17,618 nt of DNA from a bacterium (GTDB lineage Bacteria > SZUA-182 > DTGQ01): assembly GCA_023512255.1 (NCBI GenBank), contig JAILZY010000073.1, positions 1 through 17,618 of the forward strand, in the 5' to 3' direction. Under the pieces are notes generated by a model. The model had not been told where the DNA came from. It ran no database searches and saw only the letters and a program-made list of their open reading frames with translations. The position numbers were made by a program, and so were the translations under genes. Position 1 is the first letter of the stretch; the number at the start of each line of letters is the position of its first letter. This document shows positions 1 to 17,618 of the stretch, in pieces.

Positions 1-2
1 AA

Positions 3-1361
3 CTTTCTTCTCTCTTTATTTTCTCTCCTCCCCTTTATATTTTCAACATTATTTTTTCAACATGGGGAACATCTGGAGAATGGGTTTATCACTTGACCCG
101 ATCAACCGCTATAGCAATCTCGGTGCTCTTTTTGCTCAAAATAGCCAAAGAGATTAAGATGAGCAATGCGGCTGGCCTTTTAGCCATCTTTTTTTACCTA
201 ACCAGAAGTTGTTTATTTACAATTCATTTCTGGATATCTTCGATGCCAGATGTTTTGGCTATTCTCAGCATGGCCGCAAGCTTCTATTGGTATTTGAAGT
301 GGTCTGCCAACAGTAAGCAGTATGCTTACCTAGTAGGGTCATTTCTGGCCTACGGGGCAGCTCTTGCCTCAAAGCAAACCGCCCTTATGTTCCCTGTGGT
401 CATCTTTCTGGTGCACTTTTTTGTTTTGGATTATGGTAACAAAGATGCTAACAGATGGCTGAAAGCCTCAATAGCTACTTTTCCCTTTGGATTATTAGCA
501 ATTGTGGTTTTTATCTGGGGAATCTATCTACGTCAGGGAACAGTGCCATATGAAATTTCGCTTCAGCCTTTGGATATGGTTGTGAAACTACTTTCATACA
601 TTTTTTGGATTTGGATCGGATACCAATTTCCTCACTGGGAGCTTGGGAACAAAATCATCATTCCGGCTTTGGGAGCAGGAGTAGTGCTTGGGCTAATATT
701 TTTGTATCGCTATATTCCATTTTCCATTTCTGAACGCAGGTATATTAAATTCTTTATCGGAGCATCCTTTGCTTTCCTGCTGCAAGTGCTTATGTTACCT
801 GGACGTTTTCAGCAATATTATCTTGCGCCCGCTCTTTTCTGGTTCAGTCTGGCCATGGGCCTTGCTCTTGAGGTCTTACTCTTGCAGTGTGCGGCCCCGG
901 CCATTCGCCGCCGGTTTATCGTCGCCGTGCTCATTGTGATAAGTATTATCTCTATATCTGAAATTCAATTGAAAGCTGCTGATATAATCCTGCCTGGAGG
1001 ATATCCCGATGGCTATTCCTACCAGAGATTTTCTATAGTCCGAAAAACTATAGAGCATAACCTCTCCAAGATAAATACTCCTGTCCGAACAGTGGTTCTG
1101 GTAAATTTTCCCTATCGATGGGCATGGTGGTCAGGATTGATCAGGGTTCATTTCCCATCTGTGCAAGAAATTCTTTTCATGAGATATACTCCACCAGGTA
1201 GGGGCATTTTATTTCAAGGAGAAAAGCAAATTGAGTGGCCTGCCTCCCAAAAAATTCTCTTGGCTAGTCCTAATCCACTGATTTTCCTAGGATATATAAA
1301 TGATCGAGAAATACCTATCCTAAATTTTCGTGCCTCTTCGCCTACAAAAAGCAAAGACTAA
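3..1361 (+). CDS. GT-C/GT39-like membrane glycosyltransferase, 5'-truncated
   Basis: This is a polytopic inner-membrane protein with roughly ten or eleven hydrophobic segments and a soluble tail of about 90 residues. It resembles GT-C fold (GT39/ArnT/PMT-like) transferases, which move a sugar from a polyprenyl-phosphate donor to an acceptor on the periplasmic face. The frame is open from base 3 with no stop. The translated upstream residues (PPLYIFNIIFSTWGTSGEW) continue the membrane-protein pattern, so the gene begins before the window. The TTG at 93 is only the first in-window start-like codon. Family-like features are the PPLY segment, the MPDVLAILSM helix and the SKQTALMFP segment after a loop. 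The first luminal loop, where the catalytic Asp usually lies, is outside the window, so catalysis cannot be checked. It converges on the coiled-coil gene at 1470. The class is likely; the sugar and acceptor are unknown. Confidence 0.65.
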   Translation, partial: LSSLFIFSPPLYIFNIIFSTWGTSGEWVYHLTRSTAIAISVLFLLKIAKEIKMSNAAGLLAIFFYLTRSCLFTIHFWISSMPDVLAILSMAASFYWYLKWSANSKQYAYLVGSFLAYGAALASKQTALMFPVVIFLVHFFVLDYGNKDANRWLKASIATFPFGLLAIVVFIWGIYLRQGTVPYEISLQPLDMVVKLLSYIFWIWIGYQFPHWELGNKIIIPALGAGVVLGLIFLYRYIPFSISERRYIKFFIGASFAFLLQVLMLPGRFQQYYLAPALFWFSLAMGLALEVLLLQCAAPAIRRRFIVAVLIVISIISISEIQLKAADIILPGGYPDGYSYQRFSIVRKTIEHNLSKINTPVRTVVLVNFPYRWAWWSGLIRVHFPSVQEILFMRYTPPGRGILFQGEKQIEWPASQKILLASPNPLIFLGYINDREIPILNFRASSPTKSKD

Positions 1362-3917: not shown

Positions 3918-5054
3918 ATGCCAAAAATTGTTACTGTCTGCTCAGGCACAGCCTCTGCTCTCATCCTGTTTGTCTTCGCAGCTCTTATGGTTACTACGGC
4001 AGGAGGTGCCCAGTCTCAGAATTATCTCACTCGCCGAAATGCTAGTAGCGGTGTTTTAAGCTTTCTGTCAGCTTCGCCCAGCAGCAGCTTACCTTTAGCC
4101 GATTTTCCCTCTCTCTTGTACTGGAGCCCGCCTGCCAGAATCTTTCCCTTGACCAACTTGACCAATTTGGAAAGTTTGGCAGCCAACCCCCTCTTTGGGC
4201 TATTTCCTTTCTCCCCAGGGGGCGTCGGGGCAGCCGCTTTTCCCCGGACCGCCGCTGTCCAGCTCTATGCACTTCCTGCCAGCACTCGTGCCGCCGCTGG
4301 TCTGATAAGCTGGCCAAGGGCTGAGGTGGTGCTTTCGGCGGCTTCGCCAGTTGTTCCGATCAATTACACCTACACGGTAGTCAATGTCTTTCCCCATGAT
4401 CGCACCGCCTTTACCCAGGGGCTGGTTTATAATGGCGGCTTCCTCTACGAGGGGACCGGAATTGTGGGGCGGTCGCAGATAAGAAAAGTGGATCTAGTCA
4501 CTGGCACTGTCCTGCAGAGCAGGGATCTTCCTCCCCCCTACTTTGGTGAGGGCATAACCATCTATGCAGGCAAAATCATTCAATTGACCTGGCTTCATAA
4601 TATCGGCTTTGTCTATGACAAGCTCACCTTTAACCTACTCCAAAGCTTTACTTATCCGACCGAGGGGTGGGGAATTACCCACAATGGAACCAACCTGATC
4701 ATGAGCGATGGCACCTCGACCCTGCATTTTCTCGATCCGGTAACCTTTGCCGAAGTCGGCTCAATTGATGTCTATGATCAGAATGGTCCGGTAACCAGAC
4801 TCAATGAGCTGGAATATATCAAGGGACTGATCTATGCCAATGTCTGGCTGACAGAGCGGATCGTCATGATTTCACCAACCACAGGCCAAGTTGTGGGCTC
4901 GATTGATCTGAGCGGTCTACTGAGCCCAGCAGATATAGTCTTTCCAATCGATGTGCTTAATGGGATTGCTTATGATGCCAAAAATGACCGGCTATTTGTA
5001 ACCGGAAAGCTTTGGCCTAAGCTATTTGAAATTGATTTGATTCCTGTTTCGTAG
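3918..5054 (+). CDS. Exported glutamine cyclotransferase (plant/bacterial-type QC)
   Basis: A 378-residue protein. The last 225 residues or so match the plant/bacterial-type glutaminyl-peptide cyclotransferase family (a five-bladed beta-propeller), which turns N-terminal Gln into pyroglutamate and releases ammonia. Family segments in order are FPHDRTAFTQGL, LYEGTG, YFGEGIT, LTWLHNIGFVYD, PTEGWGITHNG, RLNELEYIKGLIYANVW, VLNGIAYD and RLFVTGKLWPKLFEID. The N-terminus (SGTASALILFVFAALMVTTA, then GGAQSQ) is a Sec signal peptide, so the enzyme acts outside the cytoplasm. Residues 35 to 150 are a low-complexity Ser/Leu/Pro/Ala-rich extension that is not part of the usual enzyme. The start at 3918 has a G-rich ribosome site (TAGGGGGG) about ten bases upstream. 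It stands alone between two copies of a palindromic element and converges on the sensor kinase. Substrates are unknown; pyroglutamate would protect exported proteins from aminopeptidases. Confidence 0.88.
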   Translation: MPKIVTVCSGTASALILFVFAALMVTTAGGAQSQNYLTRRNASSGVLSFLSASPSSSLPLADFPSLLYWSPPARIFPLTNLTNLESLAANPLFGLFPFSPGGVGAAAFPRTAAVQLYALPASTRAAAGLISWPRAEVVLSAASPVVPINYTYTVVNVFPHDRTAFTQGLVYNGGFLYEGTGIVGRSQIRKVDLVTGTVLQSRDLPPPYFGEGITIYAGKIIQLTWLHNIGFVYDKLTFNLLQSFTYPTEGWGITHNGTNLIMSDGTSTLHFLDPVTFAEVGSIDVYDQNGPVTRLNELEYIKGLIYANVWLTERIVMISPTTGQVVGSIDLSGLLSPADIVFPIDVLNGIAYDAKNDRLFVTGKLWPKLFEIDLIPVS

Positions 5055-5180
5055 AAGGGGAAAACCCTTTTGAAAAAGGGTTTTCCCCTTTAAACCCTTT
5101 TCCTAAAACTTTAATATCTTAATATTAAAGTTTTAGGAGGATGGTTTGGAAGGAACCCTTTTTCAAAAGGGTTCCTTCCA
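5055..5180. repeat. Compound palindromic element (REP/BIME-like)
   Basis: Three perfect palindromes lie back to back: 5055-5090 (17-bp arms, GA loop), 5102-5137 (16-bp arms, CTTA loop) and 5147-5180 (16-bp arms, TC loop). The outer two are related (CCCTTTTGAAAAAGGG core) and face each other, so the whole element is also one large imperfect inverted repeat centred on 5119/5120. It begins directly after the cyclotransferase stop and ends 15 bases before the sensor-kinase stop. It could act as a transcript-end structure for both, but no T run follows any stem. Confidence 0.9.
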
Positions 5181-5195
5181 TTAACTTATAGCTTA

Positions 5196-8021
5196 TCATT
5201 TCTTGACCACTATGCGGTACAGGAGCTTGGCTAGATCCTCAATCTGGTATGGCTTGGCGATTGCCGCGCAAAACCCCCATTGCCGAAAATCAGCTATGAT
5301 AGCGTCATTCGAGTAGCCGCTTGAGGCGATCGCCTTAACTTCAGGATCGATCTTTTGCATCAACCCTATGGCCTGCTCACCTCCCATACCGCAGGGCACA
5401 GTCAGGTCCAGGATGACTGCATCAAAGGGATGTCCATCTTCCCTGGCTCGCTGATATAGAGCAACTGCCTCTTGACCATCTCTGGCTGTCTCCACCTGGT
5501 AGCCGAGAAACTCCAGCATATGCCTAACTGTGGTGCGGATGCTCTGCTCATCATCCATGAGCAGAATCCTCCCCTGACCGGTCGGAGGGCCTGCCAGAGC
5601 CTGCTCTGGTGCGGTTTCCAAGCTCTGCTCGGCAGATGCTGGAAGATAGATGGAAAATTTCGTTCCAACCCCAAGCTTTGACCTGACCCTGATGTATCCG
5701 CCATGTTTTTTGATAATCGAATAGCTGGTAGCCAGCCCCAGGCCAGATCCTCCATCCTTGGTAGTGAAGTAGGGATCGAATATACTTTGCAGGTGCTCGG
5801 CAGGGATGCCAACCCCCTCATCTTCAATGGTTATTTTAAGGTATCTGCCTGGCTCAAGGGGCAGATCTTCTCCTGATCCTGCTCTAAGAGTTATGTTTTC
5901 AGCAAACACCTTAATTTTGCCCCCTTCAGGCATGGCCTGTTTGGCATTGATAATCAGGTTATTAATCACTTGGCTTATTTGTCCGACATCGACTTCAGCC
6001 AGCCATAGGTCTTCGGCCAGGGAAAATTCAGCCCCCACCCTAGAGCCCCGCAGAGCAAAAGTGGCCGTCTCCTTCAGAAGCTCTCCAATCGAAGCGATCT
6101 TTTTGATCGGCGCACCGCCCCTGGCAAAGGTAAGCAACTGCTGAATCAAATCCCTGGCCCGCAGGGATGATTTTTCTGTCTCACTCAGCAATCTGAAGGC
6201 TCTGCTCTCAGGCGGGGTGTGCATTTTGGCCAGGGAGAGATTGCCAAGGACCGCGGTCAGGATATTATTAAAGTCATGGGCTATGCCTCCGGCTAAAACT
6301 CCAATTGATTCAAGCTTATCTGCCCGCTGCTGCTCCTCCTCCAGCCTCTTTCGCTCAGTAATATCCCGGATGACAGCCACTATAGCCGGCCTGCCTTGAT
6401 ACTGAATAAGACCAGCCGACATCTCGGCATCTTTACTCGTGCCATCCTTGCACTTAATTTTTATTTCTAAGAAAGAGGGAAGATCATGGCCAGCTGAGCG
6501 CAAAGAAACTGATTGCTCGGCCAGCATGTCCTGTTGCTCAAGGGGGACAATGTCCGCAAAAGGCCGCCCCAGGATCTCTTCTGCCCTATAGCCGCTAATT
6601 TCGGCTGCAACCCGATTGCTGAACCGAAAAACCCCATCCTGAATAATCAGCACCCAGTCCCTGGCTTGCTCGACCACGGTTGCATACTTTAATTCTGACT
6701 CCCGCAATCTTTCCTCTGCCTGGCGGCGCTCTTCGATCTCCTGCCGAAGCCTCTCATTGGCTGCGGAAAGCTCGCCGATTTGCTCTCTCACCAACTCTTC
6801 AAGGTGATTTCGGTATAAGTGCAGCTCCTCCTCGATTTTTTTGCGCTCGGTAATGTCGGAGAAGGTTACGACTGCGGCCACAATCTCTCCAGCCCGATCG
6901 CGAATCGGAGCTGAGCTGATGCTTATCACTCCCTGACTGCCATCACCGCGGCAGATAAGAACCTCCTCATTTATAACTACTTCGCCACTCAGTATAGAGC
7001 GGGCCAGCGGCCATTCCTCTCCGCTGTAGGGCCGGCCGTTTTGGTGGAACCCACTCCATTGACCATACTGCTCGATATTCTCAGACCAAAGGAATGGGTG
7101 CCGAAAGATTTTCTCGACCTGCTTATTGCCAAGAAGCATCTTTCCCCCTGGAACCTCGGCAATGATGACCCCAGCAGGCATCTGCTGAATGACGGCCTCA
7201 AGTAGCTTAAAAAGCCGCTCATGCTCATCGTCGGCCAGCTTCTGTCTGCTGATGTCGGTTAGAATCTCAACCGCGCCGATGAATCGACCTGTTTCATCCA
7301 TGACCGGATCAAGACTCACCCGAAACCATCGCTCTCCTATCTGCCAGTTAAAAGACTCTCTCTGGCCACTCTCCCGCAGATGGGCAAAGCAGCTCCCCTC
7401 AGTATAAAGCCGCTCGCAGCCGATCAGCTCACCACACCTTTGGCCGATGATCTCGCTGGCCGGCTTGGACAGAAATCTCATCATGCTCTGGTTACACTTA
7501 ACGATTCTCCCCCCCTCATCCAGCAGGCAAACACCGTCGCTGATGGTATCAAAGGTAGCCTGCCACTTTCTGGCTGCGGATATTACTTTGCTTTCCGCCT
7601 GGTACATCCGAAGAAGAGCCTTGATACTGGCAATCAATACCGGCGGATCTATCGGCTGGGTCAGGTAGGCATCCGCTCCGCTTTCCAGCCCCACTACTTG
7701 AGACTGGCTATCCACGTAGATTCCTGAAATGTGGAGAACAGGGATCATCGCCGTGGCCGGATCAGACTTAATTATCCTACAGACTTCGAGCCCGCTGATA
7801 TCAGGAAGGTGAACGTCGAGCAGGACAAGATCAGGCTGAGCCTCCTTGAGCATCTTGAGAGCCTGCTTGCCTGATGCTGCCTCCTGGACCGCAAATCCAG
7901 CCCTTTTCAGAACTTGACTAATAGCATAGCGATTAGTCTCATCGTCATCGACATTCAGGATGGTGAACTTACTCGAAGGCTGGTCAATAGATGAGCTGTC
8001 TGGTGAAGATAATTTTGACAT
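5196..8021 (-). CDS. Hybrid sensor histidine kinase (REC-PASx3-HisKA-HATPase-REC)
   Basis: A 941-residue protein with no membrane segment, so a cytoplasmic kinase. The N-terminal receiver spans residues 18-140, with acidic D25-D27, phosphoacceptor D69 in LVLLDVHLPD and S99, but Gln122 (YLTQP) where receivers usually have Lys. Three PAS regions follow at about 152-260, 268-392 and 443-558, each ending near a TDI/SDI/RDI(S/T)xR(Q/K) element. A coiled linker with ERRQAEERLRESE lies near 400-442. The kinase core has the H box GGIAHDFNN (H582), N box NNLIINAKQAM (N687-M697), G1 EDEGVGIP, F box IFDPYFTTK and G2 GSGLGLA (758-764). The C-terminal receiver (818-941) has D823/D824, phosphoacceptor D872, S900 and K923, so it is intact. 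Architecture predicts phosphorelay from H582 to D872, with the N-terminal receiver taking input from another kinase. No cognate DNA-binding regulator adjoins it. The signal is unknown. Confidence 0.93.
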   Translation of the reverse strand: MSKLSSPDSSSIDQPSSKFTILNVDDDETNRYAISQVLKRAGFAVQEAASGKQALKMLKEAQPDLVLLDVHLPDISGLEVCRIIKSDPATAMIPVLHISGIYVDSQSQVVGLESGADAYLTQPIDPPVLIASIKALLRMYQAESKVISAARKWQATFDTISDGVCLLDEGGRIVKCNQSMMRFLSKPASEIIGQRCGELIGCERLYTEGSCFAHLRESGQRESFNWQIGERWFRVSLDPVMDETGRFIGAVEILTDISRQKLADDEHERLFKLLEAVIQQMPAGVIIAEVPGGKMLLGNKQVEKIFRHPFLWSENIEQYGQWSGFHQNGRPYSGEEWPLARSILSGEVVINEEVLICRGDGSQGVISISSAPIRDRAGEIVAAVVTFSDITERKKIEEELHLYRNHLEELVREQIGELSAANERLRQEIEERRQAEERLRESELKYATVVEQARDWVLIIQDGVFRFSNRVAAEISGYRAEEILGRPFADIVPLEQQDMLAEQSVSLRSAGHDLPSFLEIKIKCKDGTSKDAEMSAGLIQYQGRPAIVAVIRDITERKRLEEEQQRADKLESIGVLAGGIAHDFNNILTAVLGNLSLAKMHTPPESRAFRLLSETEKSSLRARDLIQQLLTFARGGAPIKKIASIGELLKETATFALRGSRVGAEFSLAEDLWLAEVDVGQISQVINNLIINAKQAMPEGGKIKVFAENITLRAGSGEDLPLEPGRYLKITIEDEGVGIPAEHLQSIFDPYFTTKDGGSGLGLATSYSIIKKHGGYIRVRSKLGVGTKFSIYLPASAEQSLETAPEQALAGPPTGQGRILLMDDEQSIRTTVRHMLEFLGYQVETARDGQEAVALYQRAREDGHPFDAVILDLTVPCGMGGEQAIGLMQKIDPEVKAIASSGYSNDAIIADFRQWGFCAAIAKPYQIEDLAKLLYRIVVKK

Positions 8022-17436: not shown

Positions 17437-17618
17437 AACCTTTACCCTCCTCTTATAAACTTTTTGGAACAACGGTTAGATTTACGGTTTGATTTTCTTC
17501 TTGTTGGTCCTGCTGGGAGATGAAAACAATAATTCGGATTACTCAGATGTTCCCCATATTTAAAATTAGGAGAAGTAGATAAGCTGCAGGGGAAGGGTAT
17601 TGAGGTAAAAGACAATAG
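17437..17618. other. Right edge, no gene assigned
   Basis: This stretch holds the AGGAGG ribosome site of the cytochrome gene. A minus-strand frame is open from the window edge to a TAA at 17444-17442 (58 codons), but its composition (many Ser, Asn, Arg and Pro) does not look like a conserved protein end. An upstream gene reaching into the window cannot be excluded. Confidence 0.4.

Follow-up and report, generated by a model that had tools for sequence, protein, structure and literature searches.

What occupies the gap between two convergent genes in the 17,618-nucleotide stretch analysed here (the window), where three back-to-back hairpins take up 126 bases, and is it peculiar to this place or one copy of something that moves? 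Similarity among copies begins and ends at positions 5055 and 5180, which bound the whole compact element, made of a unit A, a variable centre and an inverted unit B. Inverted-repeat search and folding delimit the two outer hairpins, hairpin 1 of unit A at 5055 to 5090 (perfect inverted 17-nt arms, 5055-5071/5074-5090) and hairpin 3 of unit B at 5147 to 5180 (perfect inverted 16-nt arms, 5147-5162/5165-5180). Hairpin 2, the central one (5101 to 5138), recognised as an inverted repeat and by comparison of copies, is a perfect palindrome, TCCTAAAACTTTAATAT-CTTA-ATATTAAAGTTTTAGGA, with 17-nt arms; its arms CCTAAAACTTT and AAAGTTTTAGG are conserved and enclose a hypervariable, self-complementary tip (5113 to 5126, AATATCTTAATATT in the window copy). 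The linker between hairpins 1 and 2 (5091 to 5100) consists of a few variable bases followed by CCCTTTT, with 28 different strings among 45 parsed copies, and that between hairpins 2 and 3 (5139 to 5146) belongs to a AGGAGGATGGTTTGG that is near-invariant in the alignment of copies. A perfect inverted match of 20 nt (AACCCTTTTGAAAAAGGGTT, 5063-5082/5154-5173) links hairpins 1 and 3, so the element is one inverted pair of units, and its terminal inverted repeats are also seen when the window copy is matched to itself on the minus strand (81% over 111 nt). Each unit comprises an outer hairpin with a AACCCTTTT/AAAAGGGTT core and a CC...CCTAAAACTTT tail, and the two stand inverted around a short AT-rich centre; this layout, conserved palindromic units in an inverted doublet whose spacer can pair, is the one expected of a REPIN. 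The arms and the inverted match bear out the first-pass annotation, which had described three palindromes in 126 bases with the right half inverted onto the left; its outer arm lengths of 17 and 16 nt stand, and its central one must be corrected from 16 to 17 nt.

Positions 5055 to 5180 fold at -78.2 kcal/mol, against -35.0 ± 4.0 for shuffled sequences (z = -10.8; none of 200 shuffles as good), and the opposite strand also folds far beyond its shuffles (z = -10.2). As single-stranded DNA the element adopts the three-hairpin form at -48.3 kcal/mol. Pairing unit A with unit B gives -30.8, compared with -33.1 for two separate hairpins, so that both folds are plausible. A search of the element against Rfam returned nothing at the gathering score, only weak miRNA-type matches, which are at the chance level expected from long hairpins.

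The window's own genome (G000; 3.83 Mb in 172 contigs) yielded at least 51 distinct full copies, with unrelated flanks where these were printed. A similarity search scored 40 near-full-length places including the window, drawn from 112 first-look candidates, the others being 89 to 96% identical to the window copy, and pattern searches found 50 central hairpins and 139 outer-hairpin cores. The element is thus a dispersed insertion element and not a local oddity, much as the first-pass annotation had supposed in likening the inverted unit pair to a REP doublet, BIME or MITE; an absence of other copies from the genome, which it had named as the result that would speak against dispersal, did not occur, with 51 distinct copies extracted. 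Five copies have a longer centre (TAATAACTNAACCTTTAATAACCC...) that is non-palindromic but common to them; small peptide genes considered in long-centre copies were dismissed, their frames not being conserved by eye. Two copies, L146 (C39:16.2 kb) and L151 (C45:0.2 kb), carry the same insert of about 88 nt (TCGCTCTTAT...ATAAGAGCGA) in the element centre, for which no Rfam family scored above threshold. Some 14 copies consist of a lone A unit that ends at CCTAAAACTTTTAATAAC or something very similar, and single B units are represented by at least two copies in this genome. The single A units L153, L157, L158, L161 and L172 lie directly after gene stop codons, and in L161 the stop codon of the gene appears inside the tail of the unit.

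Variation among copies is concentrated in the centre. The 42 short-centre copies have 34 different tips, 90% A+T, and their centres nevertheless pair, with a palindrome score of 0.86 vs 0.66 ± 0.02 in shuffles. At the bracketed position of the CC[T]AAAAC/GTTTT[A]GG pair, T-A was found 41 times, C-G 4, T-G 3 and C-A 2, that is, with compensatory changes, these tallies counting copies and not independent events. Paired changes extend to the loops, where hairpin 3 has TTTCAA in 31 cases and ATTGAAT in 10. A centre that is rewritten copy by copy, yet pairs, offers a natural record of hairpin change. Template switching between inverted repeats is reported to homogenise their arms and to invert the spacer (PMC8604942), and the same outcomes may apply to the centre and arms described here.

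In the window, a gene of the glutamine cyclotransferase family (3918 to 5054, plus strand; PF05096, E value of 2.4e-94) abuts the element with its stop codon (5052-5054), and a gene for a PAS/response-regulator hybrid histidine kinase (5196 to 8021, minus strand; assigned from its open reading frame and a domain search) has its stop codon (5196-5198) starting 16 bp from the other end, so the earlier remark that the element fills nearly all of the gap between convergent stops holds for this copy. Such a position would suit a sequence that is not mobile as such, a bidirectional terminator or a set of hairpins that stabilise mRNA, duplicated to other places and retained for its function, and single-unit copies lean the same way, the tail-side gene ending towards the unit in 10 of 13 by hand count. 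For compact copies the picture differs: gaps were divergent in 13 cases, co-directional in 24 and convergent in 7 (a simple ORF caller was used and gene calls are approximate), with no enrichment at gene 3' ends or convergent stops. Family placement is therefore intergenic, without preference for convergent stops, the position of the window copy between such stops is incidental, and the copies in divergent gaps count against a terminator, which would be of little use there. A terminator scan listed none within 5055 to 5180, although the scanner may miss terminators with a paired T run. Considering also a copy that replaces coding sequence in an endonuclease V gene (see below), we regard retention for such a function as very unlikely.

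Searches found no copies in a same-genus genome of a sister species (G001). The sites of four other copies were compared, three compact (C88:10234, C88:13069 and C77:8859) and one single-unit (C35:50.9 kb, after recA), and at all four the neighbouring genes are present in G001 but the element is missing. At C88:10234, both neighbour genes are adjacent in G001, separated by a short gap with no element. At C88:13069, the element sits in the 3' end of a gene named from its sequence (rather than by family search) as endonuclease V and supplies a new C terminus. Both proteins agree up to RQAHL, after which G000 continues with the element-encoded FCKGKTLLKKGFPLKPFS and a stop and G001 with LANRLRREFSPAHRLPGE and a stop; the G000 frame runs RQAHLF-CKGKTLLKKGFPLKPFS and a stop into the element. 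Here only the left flank is orthologous, as synteny with G001 is broken downstream. At C77:8859 and after recA, the hairpins are absent from G001, with intergenic alignments too poor for exact ends to be read. The simpler reading of these differences is insertion in G000, since loss of every copy in G001 would be less simple, and a copy-free sister genome makes insertion sites and timing testable. In the small sample of five compact copies compared with G001, three (C35:52456, C77:1794 and C88:13069) lie at synteny breakpoints, where neighbouring blocks map to different G001 contigs.

The ends are less regular than the interior. AAATC-type sequence marks the right end in only 11 of the 51 copies, no clear left target motif was seen among copies, and an extra outer arm is present on the left in 5 copies and on the right in 12; neither boundary is sharply fixed. 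The mean longest flank match was 4.38 vs 4.18 ± 0.14 in shuffled pairings, with no clearly enriched fixed offset, so that the fixed-length target-site duplication characteristic of MITEs was not detected. This speaks against the element being a MITE derived from a classical DDE insertion sequence, with long inverted ends and a transposase elsewhere in the genome, even if inverted ends and high copy number are what such a MITE would have and related elements in another genome (G007, see below) reach outward into longer AT-rich inverted ends. Open reading frames read by eye inside single-unit copies included no recognisable transposase. No parent transposase element was found near the copies read, in the part of the genome that was read and with the interior of G000's abundant IS-like repeat unassembled in the contigs seen. 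Derivation from that repeat was rejected, as its ends (CAGATGTTCCCCAT) are unrelated and do not match. On this evidence we hold a DDE-type MITE to be unlikely. The repeat itself gave 218 pattern matches and stands at most of the contig ends listed, including window positions 1-75 and 17544-17618; it looks like an IS whose roughly 100 copies fragmented the assembly. At L235, L251 and L258 it abuts or interrupts hairpins.

Lack of target duplication and the inverted-doublet architecture are equally what a true GTAG-class REP or REPIN, moved in trans by a RAYT (a Y1 HUH transposase), would display, and G000 does contain one Y1_Tnp domain. However, GTAG was found at only 2 of 50 outer-left feet and CGTC at none of the 50, and the GTAG tag matters for TnpA-REP activity (PMC8266576). 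That sole Y1 domain sits within a methylase ORF and has no hairpin units in its neighbourhood, such units were absent beside every Y1 gene locus examined, and a more distant genome (G040; assembly about 89% complete) carries this kind of element without a detectable Y1 domain. The REP/RAYT mobilisation suggested by the first-pass annotation, and the RAYT or Y1 gene with matching flanks that it proposed to look for, thus found no counterpart, and we consider this mode of movement quite improbable. The domain (L208; G000:C83:30598-30852, minus strand) is IS200-like and lies in frame inside a 581-codon ORF for an N6/N4 DNA methylase.

A unit-B pattern searched in 386 genomes matched 40 times in G000, 23 in G007 (same class as G000) and once in G040 (another lineage), with none in the other 383 genomes and none for reversed-pattern controls. 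Plasmid and phage collections gave short chance matches only, and two pattern scans of viral contigs gave no match. The three-hairpin plan is common to the three genomes, and for this shared plan common descent and convergence both stand. Among ten copies read from G007, the central loop points one way in about 6 and the other way in about 4. In some G007 copies (for example L189, L191 and L199) the two outer arms seem by eye to resemble each other while differing from those of other copies, as though every copy had been homogenised internally. It is conceivable, if doubtful, that the repeats of G000, G007 and G040 form a distinct class of mobile elements with hairpin ends, present across lineages, spreading as folded single-stranded DNA via a non-RAYT enzyme and having an invertible, template-switched centre.

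Taken together, we think it probable, though well short of certain, that the element is mobile, non-autonomous and intergenic, that it has REPIN-type architecture, and that a trans-acting factor moves it as folded single-stranded DNA. We count as established its dispersal in many copies, its absence at the same-genus sites tested, the lack of detectable target duplication and the conserved folding. In the proposed mechanism, a single DNA strand of the element would fold into the three hairpins and move in that form, the outer ones being recognised by a putative enzyme acting in trans; no mobilising gene was found by the Y1 domain search or among the ORFs examined beside copies. The centre, which need only pair, could drift, be re-copied and flip by template switching between the arms. 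Intergenic placement would reflect mostly the tolerance of selection, and a terminator effect at any copy would be a by-product.

Several known families invite comparison. Integron attC sites were set aside by reasoning only, no R boxes being seen by eye. With MITEs of DDE insertion sequences the element shares its non-autonomous nature, inverted ends and high copy number, but neither a target duplication nor a parent IS was found. RU-1 is the ERIC repeat, a single imperfect palindrome. The element resembles these enterobacterial intergenic repeat units of 127 bp in its nearly equal length and intergenic position (PMC2759123), and differs, by description, in its three perfect hairpins and hypervariable centre; RU-1 has been described as a small MITE-like mobile sequence that occurs within genes too (PMC2759123). 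Like GTAG- and CGTC-tagged REPs (PMC3733652), it is a short palindromic repeat in many copies, but it has neither tag, and its units are longer and paired; REPs of the CGTC class also occur without an associated transposase gene (PMC3733652). REPINs, known from Pseudomonas fluorescens and others, show the same inverted doublet of conserved units around a less conserved, variable spacer that pairs and undergoes compensatory changes, as well as intergenic scatter and single units (PMC3116915). Unlike them, the present element has end units that each form a perfect hairpin of 16-17 bp, lacks the GTAG tag and an adjacent RAYT, and has a spacer tip that is hypervariable in both sequence and length. 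As architecture, pairing spacer, lack of target duplication and single units fit REPINs and the tag and RAYT do not, we call the element REPIN-like: a population that is expanding in a lineage with neither the defining tag nor the defining transposase of REPINs, which implies either that another mobiliser exists or that the architecture arose independently.
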